Shown here: in pieces, positions 24,640 through 33,783 of the stretch | How positions within the stretch are numbered: position 1 is the stretch's first letter | How the letters are laid out: every line of letters starts with the position of its first letter | Assembly (NCBI GenBank): GCA_030295235.1 | Contig: AP026140.1 | Coordinates: 558,001-622,000, forward strand | DNA: 64,000 nucleotides | From: Fistulifera solaris | Lineage: Eukaryota > Bacillariophyta > Bacillariophyceae > Naviculales > Stauroneidaceae | Direction: 5' to 3' | The notes under the pieces: model-generated | Told to the model about the DNA's origin: nothing | The model's input: the letters and a program-made list of their open reading frames with translations, nothing else | Databases searched by the model: none | Position numbers and translations under genes: made by a program

Positions 24640-24790
24640 GTTGCGATGGCCGAGTGGTAAGGAAACATTGTCGTTCGATCCGACATTCACATCGAAACTC
24701 TGCGCTTACATGTAAACGTTCTGTCAGGTCTAAGGCGCAAGATTAAGGCTCTTGTCTTCATTGGCGGGGGTTCAAATCCCCCTCGCAACA
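24640..24790 (+). tRNA. tRNA-Leu (anticodon AAG) with a 71-bp GT...AG insertion in the D-loop
   Basis: Without the insertion the gene folds as an ~80-nt tRNA. The acceptor GTTGCGA/TCGCAAC pairs fully, the D-arm is GCC..GGC, the anticodon stem is CAAGA/TCTTG with loop TTAAGGC, and the T-arm is GGGGG, TTCAAAT, CCCCC with discriminator A24790. Anticodon AAG reads CUU leucine codons. The insertion 24657-24727 begins GTAAGG and ends TTCTGTCAG, and its removal gives the ordinary D-loop GAGTGGTCTAA. It contains a second perfect T-arm-like hairpin at 24669-24685 (TGTCG, TTCGATC, CGACA). Whether it is spliced, and by what, is unknown. The 3' 61 bp recur at 33723-33783. Confidence 0.8.
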
Positions 24791-25343
24791 AATCCTTTTG
24801 ATTCTTTACATGCTGTTTGGTAGACTGCTGCTAACTTTACAAGTACTCTTTGACTAGGAAGACCCTACCGGTAGCAGTAGTCTAGATTTAGTTTATTCCA
24901 TTTTGGCCACGTGTGAAATTCGTAACTCTCGACTACTGGACTTGTGACACAGGAGGAGGACACAAAGCTCTATCGAATGTCCAAGGGTGAAAAATCGTTG
25001 CTTACTATTTGTCATCAATAGACACAATGAGTTACTATACAAAGCACAGTTTCTCTTTCGATTCGATGGAGTCCCAACATTGACTACCTGGTACATGGTC
25101 GAGGCGTTCGCTCATCAATGCAATCACGTGTCGGTGAAGGACGCGGCCATCGTTTGAATGGTCTAAATGAATGATTCGAAGATCTTTTGTTTGAGTGACG
25201 AGAAAGTTGAATGATAAAACATTTATGAAAATTTTGCTGACTATAAAGGCATTACGACTCGGTCACGGATTACCTTTTTGTTTCTTACGACTTGCAACCT
25301 TTGTTTTGACATCGGCTTTTCTCAAATCAGCAAGTGCCTTTTT
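24791..25343. other. Left non-coding part of the island
   Basis: About 550 bp after the tRNA with no supportable gene. It precedes the stop codon of the minus-strand gene at 25344. Confidence 0.5.
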
Positions 25344-27110
25344 TTATGGCTTCAATCGTCTGTTCAATGCTTCTACCCGTTGTTTTCGCGTCAAACCTTC
25401 AGTGTCAACACTCGCATACCCCGCTTCACTAGGAAAAACAAAACATAGCTTAATGGCATCCCATGATTTCAGCTTTGGATTTGCCAGTATCATCTCTAAT
25501 GCCTTTTGGTATCGCTGGTCGCCCGCTCTTCCATGTTTGCGACGCTGAGTCGGCCCGTTGGCTAACGCAGTAAGTCGAGTCGAATCATTAGCCGGAAGAG
25601 CTCGTTTTACGTTGGAGGTTATCAGGACTCTCGCTTGCTGGCTGTCCTTATCTACACCGCCATCAACTCTTGGGCGTTTACTGCGGTTTCGTCTTTGGTA
25701 CGTGTCGAGTGCAACATCCTTTTCACCTCCCATGTATGCATCGAAATCTTCTTCATTACTGCTGCTATCATCGTCGTCATCGTTGTTGTGATTTTTGTCA
25801 TCAATTCTACAAGTAATATGGTCATCACCGATTTTCCCCGGTAGCCCCTCGTAAACCATTGCTAGGAATGTCCGACGATCTTGTTCAGCACTAGCTTGTG
25901 TCCATTCACCCATTGCTTGCAATTCAAAGGGAACAAATTGTCTTAATGCGTACCTTCGAATGCTGGCAAAGATTTCGTCCTGCCCAATACAATAAGTTCG
26001 AGAGCCTGGGACGGAATCAATAAGATCATAAGCGTTGCCATATTTAATCAAACTGACGACATGGTCTCGAAATAAAAGCGTAGCCCCTGCGTTGTTGCGT
26101 GCCTGCGCGAGGATTTCCAAGACATCGCGTACACTGTCATCGTCGAAAATATTGGCTACCCTTGCTCCAATCAAGCTTTCGTCTCTTAACACTTGGCTGT
26201 TCACTAGTGAGTTTTCAAGGTTGGTATATTCCTCTGGGTCCGGTCGTAGGATTCTCAGGTATCTTATGCATCCAAAGTCGATATTGTGCTCGATTTTCCG
26301 ATTTTCTATTGTATAGCCAGAACAAATGTGGCACTTCACATTAAGTGCAGAAATTACTGCGCAGGCATTTGCAGTTTCGGGGTTCTGACCTTGGCGTGTA
26401 GAGAGCATGACGACACGTTCCCCTCGGTTGCCATCTTCATCGTTGCCGAAGTCGTTATACTCGTCGTGATCTTCGCCGTTTTCTGCGCTGCTGCCATTGT
26501 TTCCATTGTCGTTGACAACGTCCAAGTCGTTGTCATTTGGAAAATCATTTCTGATGTGTGCAATTTGGAGAGGTTCATTAGTATCATTCTTCTCCTCGTC
26601 GCTGCTATTACTACTGTCGTTAAAGCCGCCGTCATCTTCGTCGTCGTTGTCGTATTCATAGTTAGCGTCGTCGCATATTGTCCATCTTGTGTCGACAAAG
26701 CTTATCACTGGCAATGGCACGCCGTCCTCGATCCATTCTGGCGGCGTTTCATCAGCCGATCGCCCTCGGTGCCGCAAGGCATGTATCTGCCGATAGTTTG
26801 CATTGGCTTGATTCATTTGCGCTCGGAACATCCTAGCATGAAATGCTGCACTTTCTGAGCCGCCATATTGATAATAGCAGAAATATTTTGCCCTGATGCA
26901 CGCCCGCTTCTTTTCTTCATACGTACTATAGTCAGAGTATTTCACCTTCCAAAAAAGTCCCTTCTCGTGGTATACGCCAACCATCTCCCCGTCTTGTCGA
27001 AGCTCAACTGTCGTTGACTTGTTGTTTGCGTTTTGCAAAGCAGAAAAAATCCTCAGATTGCTTTTTCTCGTTATTTTCCCGATTAAGATCAATGTGATCG
27101 ACTTGTTCAC
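25344..27110 (-). CDS. Island protein: HNH-type segment, acidic linker and peptidase-like domain
   Basis: A long open frame (up to 588 codons). Its first part carries the second half of an HNH motif (RKSNLRIFSALQNANN), and the matching first half (QVDHIDLNRENN) lies just upstream in another frame. Next come a very acidic Asp/Asn-rich region and a domain with Cys in ANACAVISAL, His in FRDHVVSLIKYG and Asp in YDLIDSVPG. The order Cys, His, Asp suggests a papain-like peptidase, which is inference. The tail (LTRKQRVEALNRRLKP) is basic. Most likely mobile-element cargo; not recognised as a named family. Confidence 0.5.
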   Translation of the reverse strand: MNKSITLILIGKITRKSNLRIFSALQNANNKSTTVELRQDGEMVGVYHEKGLFWKVKYSDYSTYEEKKRACIRAKYFCYYQYGGSESAAFHARMFRAQMNQANANYRQIHALRHRGRSADETPPEWIEDGVPLPVISFVDTRWTICDDANYEYDNDDEDDGGFNDSSNSSDEEKNDTNEPLQIAHIRNDFPNDNDLDVVNDNGNNGSSAENGEDHDEYNDFGNDEDGNRGERVVMLSTRQGQNPETANACAVISALNVKCHICSGYTIENRKIEHNIDFGCIRYLRILRPDPEEYTNLENSLVNSQVLRDESLIGARVANIFDDDSVRDVLEILAQARNNAGATLLFRDHVVSLIKYGNAYDLIDSVPGSRTYCIGQDEIFASIRRYALRQFVPFELQAMGEWTQASAEQDRRTFLAMVYEGLPGKIGDDHITCRIDDKNHNNDDDDDSSSNEEDFDAYMGGEKDVALDTYQRRNRSKRPRVDGGVDKDSQQARVLITSNVKRALPANDSTRLTALANGPTQRRKHGRAGDQRYQKALEMILANPKLKSWDAIKLCFVFPSEAGYASVDTEGLTRKQRVEALNRRLKP

Positions 27111-27383
27111 GTCTCGTCAACAACTTGCCTGTAAAACACTCCATCGCCAATCGATAAAAAGTCCGAACTCTTCCACAGCACCAAGTAAGCATTTTAATGA
27201 ACGGAACTTTTGAATTTTCGCTGTGCAGCTTGTATGTAATAACGGTGATCTTGCAAAAGTGCCGGCTTCGATATCAAACAAATGGTCACCTTTTTCGTTT
27301 ATCAAGATCGGCAGTTTTGGATGTTTGTACCATCTTTGCTTACGAAGCCATTTTTGTTTGCGACGCAAGGCTCGGCTGCTCAA
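27004..27383 (-). CDS. Upstream part of the HNH-type island gene (split frames)
   Basis: Overlapping minus-strand frames from about 27383. One encodes a basic N-terminus (MSSRALRRKQKWLRKQRW) and the other encodes GRVRTFYRLAMECF followed by QVDHIDLNRENN, the histidine-bearing part of an HNH homing-type nuclease. Together with the gene at 25344 it represents one ancestral coding region whose frame is no longer continuous here. Confidence 0.4.
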
Positions 27384-27496
27384 GCACTGTTTATACTTGA
27401 TCTTTAAATCTCTCGTTGACTCTCGAAGGCTCGATTCGTATCTATCGCAATATGTGAGTGCATTTCTTCCACTTCATACTCAGATTCTGTTGCGAC

Positions 27497-28444
27497 TTAC
27501 CCAGGTGTTCGGTTGGCAAGGAGCATGTTCTCATGTTGCGTTATCCATTCCAGAAGGTCCAAGTTGTTGTTACACCGATCTCCCTTGTGATGGACTACAT
27601 GATTGGGACTTGGCCGAGGTCCATGAAAAGTTGCAGCAATCAACGCCGCGACGGAACATTTGAACCGGGTATTACCCTTACTACAGTCCTCATCAGAAAG
27701 ATTGACATACCGATAGTTCTCAGGGTTTGGAGCTGCCAACATTAGTTTATAGGATCGCACCAACCAACTGTCTTTCCTCGGTTGTTTCCCACGCTTCCAA
27801 GATCTACGACCGATGACTTCGCCTATTCCCTTGTTGAGATAGTCCTTAGCTGTAGCCGTTGTCACCCATTGACGGTGACATGCCAAAACAAACCCGGCCC
27901 GGCTTACGAAGTACACGACTGGAAGATGAGGAAGGTAGTTCGGTGCCATATAAACTTGTGTTCCATCCGCCATGCTGCCAAAGAAGCCTCTCGTTTGACC
28001 TTGCGGCATCGGAACAAACCCTGAATTCTGCGCAACACGGAGGCATTCCTCGTACGCTAATACAGTTTTTTTGGTAGCGAGCATAGCTTGAATGAAGCGC
28101 GGAACTTTGCCCAAGGAGCCCTCCTGAAACAACTTATTAGGAACTCCAATCGGAAGATAGTATCCGTCATCGTCTGAATGGTAGGCGGTACTTTCTTGAT
28201 TTGAAAGTCGTATTAGTTCCCAAAAATCTTGCATTACTGCTGGATCCGCGTATTGAAGAGGGACGCCATCGAAACGAACGCCTTGTGGACGGAGGGTTCG
28301 ATCTCCATTGAGCTCGAACTCTCTAGGGTCTTGATAGGGTATCGATACAACTGGATCAAGCCTAGCACCAGTGTTTCCATGAATTGAAGCCCAGAACGGT
28401 GGTGTATTGCTGAAAATAGCCAAGGCTATCCTTTCGAATCTCAT
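27497..28444 (-). CDS. HNH endonuclease-like island protein
   Basis: About 315 residues from the ATG at 28444. The C-terminus has an arrangement of YRYVNLSDEDCSKG, VAALIAATFHGPRP, VVHHKGDRCNNNLDLLEWIT and ENMLLANR. This matches HNH nucleases of the homing or phage type (xVHHxxGxxxNNxxxNLxWxT). The N-terminal 200 residues have no family that I recognise. Such nucleases often drive or accompany mobile DNA. The downstream neighbour also carries an HNH motif, so two related nucleases sit side by side. Confidence 0.65.
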   Translation of the reverse strand: MRFERIALAIFSNTPPFWASIHGNTGARLDPVVSIPYQDPREFELNGDRTLRPQGVRFDGVPLQYADPAVMQDFWELIRLSNQESTAYHSDDDGYYLPIGVPNKLFQEGSLGKVPRFIQAMLATKKTVLAYEECLRVAQNSGFVPMPQGQTRGFFGSMADGTQVYMAPNYLPHLPVVYFVSRAGFVLACHRQWVTTATAKDYLNKGIGEVIGRRSWKRGKQPRKDSWLVRSYKLMLAAPNPENYRYVNLSDEDCSKGNTRFKCSVAALIAATFHGPRPSPNHVVHHKGDRCNNNLDLLEWITQHENMLLANRTPG

Positions 28445-29451
28445 GGGAGAACTTGATCTCGCAGACAACTGAACACCAGAAATGTTTTCGTTTTCTTCAG
28501 CCTTTGATTGATGAAAGGAGGAACATGAGAAAAAATTTGGATCAAATCAATGGCTTGGTGGATAATCGTTCGAGGACTCCCATCAAAGGACCCACACGGG
28601 TCTAGATTGCCCAACTGTGTGTGTGTGTGTGGCGGTCATTTGGCAAAAATATGAAAGTTGGATCTCTCATTCAGCTCTGTGCGTTATCAAGCGAGACAGA
28701 CGCCCACTGATCAACTGATCCCCGCAGACATCGCGTTCTGGTCATTTCTTATCATCGTAGAACTTTGCCTTATTCATTCAAGAACACAAGCGATCGTTGA
28801 AGTACAACGTTGTTGAGCGTCCACCTAGTGCCTCCAGAACCAGACTCCAGGTTCAGACTTCAGACGCATGACTGCGAGTTTAAATTACATTATTTCTGAA
28901 AGACTTTTTCAGAAGAAAAAGAGTACCCCGCGAGCTCGACATTTTACAACAATGTTTCTCAAAATTGATGTTCGTTGTGAGTTGTGAATGAATATTATTT
29001 CAAACGTTGTTTTTGCCACATTTCGCGGCCACGAAAAGATCGAGTACCGGTCGTGACTGAAGCAGCGACGACTCACGATCAGGCGAAACTAGCAAATAAT
29101 AATACTTTGATACTCCGTATTATATTTTAAGTCCTATCCACGTTGTAGGTTCTTACTCTCGCGATATAAGCCACTAGAAACTGATTCAGACTGGCTGCCC
29201 CCAAAGAGACATCCGATTGGCTGGCCGGGAACCACCCTCACAAGATTCTCATCTACGGCGAATAATAATGTCGTTTTGAGATCTACCGAAAAAGTCCTCG
29301 ATGCAAGTAGACCGGTAACGGGCTAAAAAGTCAAATATTGGCTTTCAGTTCATATAATTGATTAACTCTCTTGTGTAATGTTGTAAGGAGAAAACGTACG
29401 CTTCTTCATTACTCCGTATTTTATTGTCCGACTCTCTCTGAGGGCTGAGGG
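28445..29451. other. Non-coding middle of the island
   Basis: About 1 kb without a supportable gene. It has a short TG run near 28617 and two ACTCCGTA copies (29112-29119 and 29411-29418). Confidence 0.55.
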
Positions 29452-29627
29452 CCATTTCTAACCGGAAGTTTCGTATTCGTATTTTCGCATTTCGCGTTCG
29501 TATCCGGAGAAAATGACAGACGAGAACTTTTGTATTTTCTTATTTCCCTCCCGTTTGGGCAAAATGGAAACGTGCGCGACCGGGCGAATACGAAATTACG
29601 AATTGCGAACATTCCGGTTAGAAATGG
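29452..29627. mobile_element. MITE-like sequence with 16-bp perfect terminal inverted repeats
   Basis: CCATTTCTAACCGGAA (29452-29467) is the exact reverse complement of TTCCGGTTAGAAATGG (29612-29627). Imperfect inverted similarity continues inward (TTCGTATTCG against CGAATACGAA). At 176 bp and without coding capacity it fits a miniature inverted-repeat element. I could not see a clear target-site duplication. It lies next to the 3' side of the retroelement. Confidence 0.6.
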
Positions 29628-30693
29628 TAACACTAACACAATCCTAAATATTTATTCCTAATTTTCCTGAAATGCGGATGCTTTTTCGACATTTGACTGA
29701 ATTTTCCACTGTTTTTTCTCTTTTGGCACAAATATTTTTTTCTTTCTTTCAGAAACTCCGATTTCTGAATCACTGTACCACAGTTAGTAGTAAAGCGACA
29801 AACCTGCGCCGGTTTCCCAGTGCGGAGGATTGCGCTGTGGCGCTATCTCTCGGATTTCGCAATAGCATGCTCACCGATCGAACCAACGAGAGACTCAAAC
29901 GAGATCGGATAAACCCACAAATTTCTGAGTACGGTCTCTTCCATTTCTTTTGCAGCTTTCTTGCAAGCTGGCGTGAGGCCGCAACAGCTTGTTTACCCAT
30001 GAGCCCGTCGACAGAAAAAACAAGAGGCGTGAAATCACGGCGGCGGTCCATACAGGGCTTACCGTAAAGTCTTCGTTTCTCGAGTTCTTGGGAAGCAAGA
30101 ACGTTCATTGGCTCGCGATTCTTGTGCGAAGGCGTCAGTGTCGGTAACGCTGGACGTCAAAGATGGTTGTTTTCCGATCGCTCCAGAAACCGTAAGTAGA
30201 AATGTCGCCGAAGTTCTTGTTCTTTTGTGCATTCCGATTGTCAGTGCTGTAAGTGTGGATTGTCGGTTCGCTATGCATTACTGCTTTTGGGCCATGCACA
30301 AAGAGACATGAATTCGTTTTTGACATCGTCGTGTCGAAGGATGACAAGACCGCCCGTGTTTGCATGTTTGAGCGTGTTCTACCGAGAAAGGTTTGTTGCA
30401 TCCGTCACACTTCTGGGGAAGTGCTTGGATAGGTAGACCTGCACGAATCGCGAAGACTGTCTCGGAACTCATCTTTAGACAAATCAGTGTCTGTGAGAGT
30501 TTTCGGTCTGACGGAAAGCCAAATTCCAGACGATTTTGCTCGCAAAAGACGTCGCTTTTCTTGTTTGCCTTTTTCATCGTCTCCTTTCGCGAGCGCAAAT
30601 ATCTTTCAGGGTCTGGAGTTCACTAGCGTGGCGACTTGCGGAAGCCGCAGCTCTTCGATTTTTGCTCGTTCTTGATGTTGTCGGAAGTTTAAA

Positions 30694-32353
30694 TTAAGGT
30701 TCTCGAGCAAACTGCCTGAAATGAGCTTCGTGACTTTTTCCGAAGTTGAGAAATTGTGACGACATGTCTCCACTGGGTTCCAGACTCCGATACCAGCAGC
30801 TTTGGTTCCTAAAGCCAGAATTTTGCGCAATTCTCCGGTGACTGGCTCTTTTTGTCCAAGGAGCGGGAAGAAAATTGTTTTGAATTGCGGATTCTAATGG
30901 TTCGAATAGCGGTGCAATGCGTGGAATGACTCGCTGGATATATTGCCATTCCATTTGAAGAGAGTGACGAAAGCCGGAATAAGCGGACTGGGGATATTTC
31001 TTGGCAACTTCAGAGAGCAGATTGACTGTGCGTGTCCAATTTTTGATTTTTTCTTTGACGTATTCATCTCTTGCAGCTGCTGAACCAATAAAGCCACCAA
31101 GGTATCTGTGTCCGCCGAACATATTCAAATTCATATTTGGACAGAATTTCGTTGCACTTTTCTTCATTGCTCTGTCGACAGACAACAACACTTTGCTTGG
31201 TTCTGGAAAGTAGCCTCGAGCGGGACCGTACTGCATTAGGATTTCCATTGCTTTAGAAATGTCAGAGGATTTTCCAGCCAGAGCAACATCATCCGCATAG
31301 AAGGGCTGAACAATGTCTTTGACATTCTCTCGGATTTTCTCTGCAATAGGAGTAAGAGTTAAACCATAAAGGATCATGCTTAGAGGATCGCCTTGGGCTA
31401 TTCCTTCCCTGCTTAGGATCTCTTCACAGAAGTCAAAGTCTCGTACAAATAGAGTAGATGCATGTCTGTAGCAATTGAAAACAAATCTTGCTCCAGCTGG
31501 CCAAAGGTGCCGAACCGTCCAGAGCATTGAAAATCTGCTGAGTTCATTAAATGCGTTTCTTGCGTCAATTAGGAGCACTGCTTCGGGATCATTTTCGTCA
31601 TAATTTTCTTTTCGGTTGAGATCATCCTCATAGTCCAGCAGTCTTTCAGTGATTTCTTTTTGGACCTCTTCTAGGTTAGATTCGAGATCTTGGGCTTCTT
31701 CATCAGTGAATCCCATTTCAAGAAGAATGGTCTTTTCGAGAAGTGCTTCTTGGTTGGGTGACGCCAGGAATTTTAGCATTGCGTGAATGGATCCCTCGGT
31801 GCCTGAGGAGAGTCCCGTACAAAGGTTAAGGTTACCACATTCTTCTGCTGCCGAGTCACCCTTGAGAATAGCAACCGTTTTGGCCATTAAGCGACGGAAG
31901 ATTTCTTCAATTGCAATAGGGGCGAACTCCGGGCTTTTGTCTAAACCAATAAGTCTTGCATTTAGTAGGGCCCAAATTGCAGCATATGGAGGGCTGTGAT
32001 TTGCAAGCCATTCTGTCCAATGAGCCAACTCGCATCTCAGGCGAAAAGAAACTTTCCCGTGACCTAGGAGCCAATTCTTTAGAGTGACCGCGTCTGTTCC
32101 ACTTGGTCCTCCACTTCCTTTGAGTTTGGTGGCAGAGGTTGCGATTGTTTCTGCGGAGACTTCGTAAAGGAACTGCATCTGGAAGAAAATCATACTGTTC
32201 AAAGGCAAGTCGTCCTTCTGTTGTGTTGAGATCAGGGGTGCGCAACTCTGGATGTTTATCACGTAGAACCTCAATAACTTTGCGATTTGTTTTGGGGTCA
32301 ATATCTTCCGGATCGAGGACTCCTTTTGACTCGGTAGAGGTGAGTAATTGCAT
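30694..32353 (-). CDS. Reverse transcriptase of the island retroelement
   Basis: The open frame of about 530 residues has RT blocks in order: GGPSGTDAVTLKNWL, RLIGLDKSPEFAPIAIEEIF, LLIDARNAFNELSR (catalytic Asp), SREGIAQGDPLSMILYG, and QPFYADDVALAG (the YADD active site). The thumb region follows. An overlapping frame to 32353 encodes the preceding segment (VIEVLRDKHPEL). Copies DNA from element RNA. Confidence 0.8.
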
Positions 32354-32713
32354 TGCTTCTTTGGTTCGTCCGGGATTTCAACATGGCGTCAAAGCGTCGT
32401 GCCCTTTCTTCAAGGGTAAAAGCACGCTTTGATGGCTTATCCCGCTTTGCTTTTTCTAGAACTGTATCGTGATAAAGAGCATGCTGATTTCCCGATAACC
32501 AAAGATCCAATCGATCATTCAGTCTTCTGTTGATGTCTTTTTGTCGTTTGATATGTGGGGTGGACTCAAGAATGACCATGATGAAGACCAAGACTCGCTC
32601 GAAATTTGCTGTTCTGTGCTTTCGGACGTTTTGTAGCTCTTCAGTTAGAATGGAAAGAAACCGCTTTGAAGTGCCGTTTCGACGGAGGGTGTAAGCTCGT
32701 GACGGTGTTGCAA

Positions 32714-33526
32714 TTAGGGATTTGTACCAGTCTTGCCATTTTTTGTCAACTTCTTCGGGCAGTCCTCCTGTGAGGTGTGTTCCATCATTATCGTGGATGT
32801 GGTCGCCGAAAACTTGACGGATAGTTTGATGTGATTCCGTGTCAACAAATCCCGGAGGTCAGCATCAGGTTCCGGTGTAGAAAGTTGGTTGAATGTTGAG
32901 TTAGTGTGTCGGTCATACATTTCTTCTCCGTCTTCGCCCTCGTCACTGTCATCACTTCGGAAGTCAATAGGAGTGCCGTCGTGAACTTCAACTTGAATGG
33001 TGTCATTATGTCCTGTTTCCTGGTATTCCTGGTTTTGTACTGGTTGAGGTTGTGAGTCGATGACTTCGCGATTACTGTTTTGGATTTGGATCGTCTCATT
33101 TCCCGTGTCATTGTTAGCAGGGTTAGGGTTCGTGTCCTGAGGTCCAAGTCCAACCGGTTGGCAAAATTCCACCATGAGTTCTCTTCCGTTGATAGTGTGA
33201 GTGGTTTGAAGACGATCTTTGTTATGGCAGTCGGAACATTGGCAATTTGTACAGTAAATACCATTTTGCTTGCAGCGGCATCTATTTGTTTTGCAGTGGG
33301 CCTTTGGAGTACATTTGCAGCATCGGGATGCGTTGGCGTTTGGTCCTAAATGAATTTTTGACTTAGTACTCTGCTTCCTAGTGTTCCGCGTTCTGGTACC
33401 TTTTACTGGCTGGTGAGTAGTACTCGAATATGTCAGTTGATCAGGGTCGACTAGATGGATTGATGTTTCGCCAAAACTCACGGATCGCCGATTCGGCGAT
33501 GCAGCGTTTGAACCATGGTTGTCCAT
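32714..33526 (-). CDS. CXC-like cysteine-rich protein of the retroelement
   Basis: A 270-residue frame. Residues around 70-105 hold a dense cysteine pattern (CCKCTPKAHCKTNRCRCKQN followed by CTNCQCSDC) like tesmin/CXC zinc-binding domains, suggesting DNA or RNA binding. The rest is hydrophilic, rich in Asn, Gln, Thr and Asp. Its position directly upstream of the RT suggests the element's first protein. Host transcription-factor origin is the alternative, but the context argues against it. Confidence 0.6.
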   Translation of the reverse strand: MDNHGSNAASPNRRSVSFGETSIHLVDPDQLTYSSTTHQPVKGTRTRNTRKQSTKSKIHLGPNANASRCCKCTPKAHCKTNRCRCKQNGIYCTNCQCSDCHNKDRLQTTHTINGRELMVEFCQPVGLGPQDTNPNPANNDTGNETIQIQNSNREVIDSQPQPVQNQEYQETGHNDTIQVEVHDGTPIDFRSDDSDEGEDGEEMYDRHTNSTFNQLSTPEPDADLRDLLTRNHIKLSVKFSATTSTIMMEHTSQEDCPKKLTKNGKTGTNP

Positions 33527-33722
33527 GCTGAAAAGCGATTGATCGGTTGATCTGATGAGAGATTGAATGCGAAAAATGAATTCAGCGTCGTCGAATTGTC
33601 CAGAATAGATGACAGGGATTCGAGGGGGGCTTCAGGAATAGTGATTTTAACCTTAACCCGACTGATTTTCCTATGAAGCAAAGCTTGAAATGGTCCTGAG
33701 TTTTATATTGATTCTCTCGGGG

Positions 33723-33783
33723 CTAAGGCGCAAGATTAAGGCTCTTGTCTTCATTGGCGGGGGTTCAAATCCCCCTCGCAACA
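33723..33783 (+). repeat. 61-bp copy of the tRNA-Leu(AAG) 3' part (right boundary of the island)
   Basis: Identical by eye to 24730-24790: the end of the D-loop, anticodon arm, variable region, T-arm and 3' acceptor strand, without any 5' half nearby. Weaker similarity (CTTTTGAT) continues for about 12 bp beyond. It cannot act as a tRNA by itself. Confidence 0.92.

Follow-up and report, generated by a model that had tools for sequence, protein, structure and literature searches.

A tRNA-Leu gene of the diatom Fistulifera solaris probably split by a three-layer nest of separate insertions

The stretch of Fistulifera solaris DNA analysed here (the window, 64,000 nucleotides of contig AP026140.1, corresponding to C19:558001-622000 in an assembly of 51.7 Mb in 61 contigs) contains an island of extra DNA within a tRNA-Leu(AAG) gene, bordered on both sides by the same 61-bp sequence from the 3' part of that gene. 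As the homeologous contig C20 shows the site before insertion, what appeared to be a new integrative element can be separated into three events. The island is probably a nest in one homeologue of the gene, formed by a cassette with a double-HNH nuclease gene, then a miniature inverted-repeat transposable element (MITE) and then an R2-like retrotransposon of the type without long terminal repeats (non-LTR). The initial annotation, made from the sequence alone, had suggested either one composite element within an integration repeat or a retroelement beside older foreign DNA. The observation itself stands, and the second suggestion came near the truth; the single-element reading does not hold, as the retrotransposon ends independently at 29629 and 33686, carries an 8-bp direct repeat of its own and has relatives without tRNA genes.

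F. solaris has been described as an allopolyploid diatom with 42 homoeologous chromosome pairs (PMC5935921). C19 and C20 are collinear around the island, with an N-acetyltransferase gene to its left and an FG-GAP gene to its right, and C3/C4 and C5/C6 are also collinear in parts. The empty tRNA-Leu site that the initial annotation proposed to look for was found on C20, where the tRNA-Leu(AAG) gene lies uninterrupted and without a scar next to the same neighbouring genes. The flank to the right of position 33783 aligned to the C20 flank with a score of 127 (best of 200 shuffles, 61), whereas the DNA following the left 61-bp copy could not be aligned to it (score 31, shuffles up to 49), and the region from 24659 to 33722 is therefore entirely extra on C19. 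Integration into a tRNA gene is thus borne out as far as extra DNA in the C19 tRNA-Leu gene is concerned, but this gene was split and not rebuilt. According to the gene prediction given in PMC5935921, which is noted there to be possibly incomplete, the nuclear genome has 76 tRNA genes, and only 5 of 34 anticodon types have multiple copies per subgenome; since most types are single-copy per subgenome, the genome probably has two such genes, the broken one included.

The 61-bp copies (24730-24790 and 33723-33783, both on the + strand) were confirmed as a maximal exact match (61/61 bp), and the right one is followed by the C20-like flank. The repeat is far beyond chance, as a core pattern of 28 places with up to three mismatches occurred three times in 51.7 Mb and the reversed control not at all. 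A search for other copies of the repeat did yield one, within the C20 tRNA-Leu(AAG) gene, but this gene is uninterrupted and its site lacks an HNH gene. The repeat begins in the D-loop (CTAAGG) and includes one base past the tRNA 3' end, near the limit initially assigned to it; as weaker similarity of both copies extends some 11 bp beyond the 61 bp on each side, it may not stop exactly at the end of the tRNA. The left copy does possess a tRNA 5' part (24640-24658, + strand), 19 bp which exactly match C20:542184-542202 and which have exact matches only on C19 and C20 (a match on C15 has two mismatches). However, the gene is not intact, as a 71-bp block in the D-loop (24659-24729, + strand), which contains a T-arm-like hairpin and is absent from C20 by comparison, separates the two parts. 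No other genomic copy of this block was found at the sensitivity of the search used, nor any further genomic match to its T-arm-like motif with fewer than two mismatches. A decayed tRNA-Leu copy was considered as its source and rejected, since the similarity was not significant (24% of shuffles were equally good). At the edges of the cassette an 8-mer, TTGATTCT, is shared between positions 24798-24805 and 33708-33715 and is a weak candidate for a target-site duplication of the cassette. Together with the weak 11-bp similarity, it would be consistent with a tandem unit of some 83 bp that the cassette subsequently split, a reading that we hold loosely because a shared 8-mer of this kind is expected in 3.1% of random zone pairs.

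The order of the layers can be read from two short direct repeats. The retrotransposon covers 4,058 bp on the - strand (29629-33686), as delimited by its relatives elsewhere, its own ends and the nesting, and is flanked by a target-site duplication, GAAATGGT (29621-29628 and 33687-33694). When 29629-33686 is taken out, a single GAAATGGT remains together with a 182-bp MITE whose matching ends lie between two copies of TGA (29446-29448 and 33697-33699). The main part of the MITE (29449-29628, arms of 22 nt, 91% complementary) and its last two bases (33695-33696) join across the retrotransposon, and its terminal inverted repeats then match at 19 of 22 positions; the retrotransposon accordingly sits inside the terminal repeat of the MITE. 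From its terminal inverted repeats and the 3-bp duplication TGA we take the MITE to belong to the PIF/Harbinger superfamily. No other copy was present in the loci compared, a genome search for the MITE not having been made.

The retrotransposon adds a new member to a known group, the R2-like non-LTR retrotransposons. The nearest solved relatives of its reverse transcriptase (RT; 30694-32388, - strand) were R2 proteins, though weakly (E 4.6e-4 and 5.6e-4), and the RT itself reached 25.3 bits with RVT_1, under the Pfam cut-off of 29.6; the CXC-like domain of its N-terminal part also remained below cut-off. In the endonuclease-like C-terminal part (about 29770-30156, - strand), which by eye we take to resemble the endonuclease of R2-like elements, a restriction-like endonuclease motif was recognised by eye in the frames of the C39 copy and of the window, without a profile match. 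A tblastn search with the RT frame returned 78 matches (75 candidates scored), and the relatives are about 70% to 98% identical at the DNA level. Near relatives have a common 3' end around 29650, and 5'-truncated copies begin at positions corresponding to 32076 (C13), 31501 (C45), 31005 (C38) and 33625 (C5). The copies in the window and on C8, C39, C20, C6 and C10 have the start GGTTARGGTTA in common; this GGTTAGGGTTA-like start, which resembles a telomere repeat, was seen at about 33651-33661 in the window, on C39 and at C20:326k, C6:788k and C10:945k. Flanking direct repeats measure 14 bp at the C8 copy, 9 bp at C5 and 8 bp in the window, and less regularly placed repeats of 9 and 8 bp occur at the C39 and C20 copies; comparison of the flanks gave no convincing repeat for the C13 copy (C6 and C10 were not evaluable). 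No fixed target was seen among the copies, and ARAGORN detected no tRNA gene in 18 other retrotransposon regions (76.0 kb, leaving out at least the places on C31, C29, C2, C46 and C7 and at C6:711k), nor did cmscan in 20 loci. Between the window retrotransposon and the C5 copy (C5:94863-99559) there are 21 mismatches and 26 gap openings in 4,010 bp, and judged by so few mismatches the window copy is young. The tRNA repeat might have belonged to the retrotransposon, with 33626-33722 as its 5' end; this was rejected because the 5' starts of five other copies stop before the tRNA. The C8 copy is preceded by sequence like the 3' end of its own family, as if it had landed next to an older one.

Without the two nested insertions, the HNH cassette measures 4.7 kb and consists of 24791-29448, the last three bases being the TGA copy, and of a 23-bp right end at 33700-33722. 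One gene was recognised in it, on the - strand, in the order HNH1, HNH2 and peptidase-like domain: the HNH1 exon (27497-28546; Pfam HNH_3 28.7 bits, cut-off 24.8), the first part of the HNH2 region (27117-27473), where the frame breaks, perhaps through an assembly error, and an open reading frame (ORF) without a Pfam family (25344-27116), which takes in the end of the HNH2 region, a linker and the peptidase-like domain (about 25767-26444). As initially noted, all recognised coding stretches between the 61-bp copies lie on the - strand. The gene calls fared unevenly: HNH_3 exceeds its Pfam cut-off, but RVT_1 and the CXC-like domain do not, and the 'peptidase' has no Pfam match, its label referring to stretches of conserved Cys, His and Asp residues recognised by eye. 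What had been described as two HNH nucleases is better regarded as a single gene that encodes both HNH domains, since the relatives on C3 and C5 show HNH1 followed by HNH2, with a short gap between them that we read as an intron; fragments of the two occur on C1. The peptidase-like part is 40-42% identical to predicted proteins on C7 (L045:1483-3165) and C8 (L047:1198-3105), which both share its Cys/His/Asp domain; the C7 protein gave nothing above Pfam cut-off. On C3 (about 1880722-1882065; L052:2488-3831), a ubiquitin-domain frame (E 1.8e-23) is located directly upstream of HNH1, to which it is apparently joined by a putative intron.

The HNH family is often found next to tRNA genes. Besides the window, ARAGORN identified a tRNA gene in four of the five regions of the close family (25.7 kb), namely C3:1878k, C3:205k, C5 and C6, and Rfam agreed on all four. 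The distant family had one in a single region of six (18.6 kb; C2, a tRNA-Thr gene with an intron), and three regions with peptidase-domain genes had none (10.6 kb, ARAGORN); the HNH places at C21:266k, C1:2603k and C35:140k were left out of the count. With the homeologous C5 and C6 counted once, the four cases reduce to three independent ones, and the probability of at least three is 8.7e-6, 6.5e-5 or 4.9e-4 for 76, 150 or 300 tRNA genes in the genome. Two HNH regions were fetched after the idea had arisen, of which C2 was positive and C5:1469k negative. The homeologous sites of three HNH loci have no HNH gene, as HNH matches were absent at the C20 site and near both C4 sites. At C3:205k, collinearity with C4 ends 200 bp downstream of a tRNA-Leu(TAA) gene and resumes beyond the HNH stretch, opposite which C4 carries about 0.6 kb of other DNA; at C3:1878k, it ends at a tRNA-Gly gene. 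A second tRNA-Gly place on C3 remains similar as far as 1878479; this point, some 100 bp upstream of the tRNA gene, is where the HNH frame starts. A second tRNA-Gly 3' copy on C3 was dismissed as a parallel to the window, since tandem or partial tRNA-Gly copies also occur on C4 and at the second C3 place without an HNH gene, and is read as decay of a tandem pair. The tRNA-Ser(TGA) genes beside the HNH genes on C5 (L053:314-397) and C6 (L057:1313-1394) have very different acceptor stems, each fully paired.

In the history that we consider probable, the 4.7-kb cassette, in which the double-HNH gene runs into the peptidase-like domain, would have arrived in the tRNA gene, the MITE would then have entered near the right end of the cassette and duplicated TGA, and the young retrotransposon would have entered the terminal repeat of the MITE by target-primed reverse transcription, duplicating GAAATGGT. 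That RT, HNH and peptidase genes instead entered the tRNA 3' end together, with the 61-bp repeat as attachment site or target-site duplication, is very improbable. Such an element would account for the recognised genes on one strand, the direct repeat at both edges and the empty C20 site, and long target-site duplications are possible for some non-LTR elements. Nevertheless, each of the two transposable elements within the island, retrotransposon and MITE, is delimited by its own ends and short direct repeats, no other retrotransposon region examined has an HNH-type or tRNA gene, the HNH relatives are located where no RT match was listed, and Pfam recognised no integrase in seven ORFs of the island (the short ORFs were not all scanned). 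The origin of the 61-bp repeat is a closer question. It may stem from an earlier tandem duplication of this 3' part, present before the cassette, which would then be flanked by TTGATTCT, or the insertion itself may have produced it, when repair of a break made in the D-loop by the HNH enzyme or another nuclease copied the 3' part to the far edge and left the 71 bp as filler, with the same nesting to follow. The repair origin is a substantial but minority possibility: one D-loop position marks the start of both the 71-bp block and the right copy, and 61/61 identity fits one recent event, but the weak similarity past both ends of the 61 bp agrees with an older tandem unit, and TTGATTCT stands at both cassette edges. 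We lean slightly toward the prior tandem duplication. It is scarcely credible, by comparison, that the split left copy still functions as a tRNA gene, the 71 nt in its D-loop being an intron. The Rfam tRNA model does accept 24640-24790 at 45.1 bits, including a D-loop insertion of 74 nt, and D-loop introns are described for permuted tRNA genes of Cyanidioschyzon (PMC3978253). Yet the minimum-energy fold retains the acceptor and T stems without a clear cloverleaf and excisable loop (no specific splice-motif test was applied), and C20 retains the uninterrupted gene. ARAGORN called no tRNA in the window, even when introns of up to 150 nt were allowed; its sole call over the C20 region and the window (92.5 kb) was the C20 tRNA-Leu.

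How the cassette came to this site is a separate matter. HNH cutting of the tRNA gene, or the RNA polymerase III (Pol III) complex, may have guided it, and the cassette may have moved as a unit; the tRNA preference of the family is suggestive, not proven. The broader proposal, that a family of nuclear double-HNH genes in this diatom, joined to ubiquitin or to a peptidase-like domain, forms a mobile cassette that lands at tRNA genes or Pol III complexes, so that the tRNA gene of the window would be whole only on the other subgenome, is doubtful at present. Somewhat better placed, although still short of an even chance, is the view that there was no targeting, that tRNA genes are places of breakage between the subgenomes and that the HNH genes are old and reside there by chance. 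It gains from the HNH genes in both homeologues at C5/C6, from the C4 site opposite C3:205k, which is not a clean empty site, and from the distant HNH regions without a tRNA gene; against it stand the close-set count, well above expectation, and the lack of tRNA genes in all 18 retrotransposon regions. Several further points weigh against the layered history with an arriving cassette. The data that first suggested the tRNA association are also those in which it was counted, and the P values flatter it. The C1 region of the close family and five of the six distant regions have no tRNA gene, and the C2 tRNA-Thr called by ARAGORN was not reported by Rfam. As C5 and C6 both carry the HNH gene beside tRNA-Ser, the insertion there is old or there was none. 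The close HNH relative at C3:205k is just 63% identical, so no donor for the cassette is seen; a second cassette copy with shared ends was not found, and outside their coding parts the HNH loci show no match to each other, so that movement as a unit is conjectural. At the locus itself, TTGATTCT at both cassette edges may be due to chance, and this history does not account for the 71-bp block at the same D-loop point.

The genome supplies its own control through the C20 locus, and a census would be worthwhile above all for the HNH family and its tRNA neighbours. If the link held in a full census, endonuclease genes of a eukaryotic nucleus would be gathering at tRNA genes, and with one predicted gene per subgenome for most tRNA types, only the second subgenome would buffer a loss. 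Apart from one paper on polinton-like viruses, a search of the open-access literature found no publication on this combination of retrotransposon, HNH and tRNA genes in a diatom, and none on Ambal non-LTR elements in diatoms.

Known systems share single features with the island. Prokaryotic islands in tRNA 3' ends likewise carry the tRNA 3' part as a direct repeat on either side, but there the tRNA gene is rebuilt, whereas here the gene at the left edge is split and no integrase was recognised in the seven ORFs. With R2-like elements the retrotransposon shares the weakly R2-like RT, 5'-truncated copies and short direct repeats; it differs by the lack of a fixed target among the copies seen and by the weak CXC-like N-terminal part. 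Dada elements of fish also insert within tRNA genes, including tRNA-Leu, and are reported to encode a DDE transposase, to leave 6-7-bp duplications and to use nucleotides 8-13 or the anticodon stem (PMC3706591, PMC8869645). In contrast, the island has its edge in the D-loop and a 61-bp repeat, its nearest short repeat is 8 bp and outside the tRNA, and the Pfam scan of the seven ORFs, made without a Dada profile, recognised no DDE transposase. TRE5-A of Dictyostelium, named as a tRNA-targeting retroelement in PMC3706591, inserts near tRNA genes and not at one point, as the HNH loci suggest as well, but the HNH cassette itself lacks an RT. Phage-type HNH homing endonucleases share the HNH_3 domain, and 37 phage records matched part of the HNH protein at E <= 0.01 (29-42% identity among the 20 matches listed); the window family differs in being nuclear, with two HNH domains per gene, introns and partners that are ubiquitin or peptidase-like.

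A viral origin of the HNH gene was also considered and rejected, as two IMG/VR scans confirmed no relative. Among protein database entries, P0001 and P0002 were retrieved with the window and alignment queries and P0003 with the C3 HNH2 exon. HNH_3 exceeded its cut-off in the window exon, P0001 and the C3 HNH2 exon, and remained below it in C3 HNH1, both C5 exons and P0002. The C3:205k gene encodes P0001 (100% identity over 242 residues), which reads through a frame break of the assembly. Taken together with gap openings in excess of mismatches (26 vs 21) in the retrotransposon comparison, this makes indel errors in the assembly likely; the frameshifts were not taken as decay, and no conclusion is drawn from broken frames. 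P0003 has its best match on C1, over its full length but at 62% identity with gaps.

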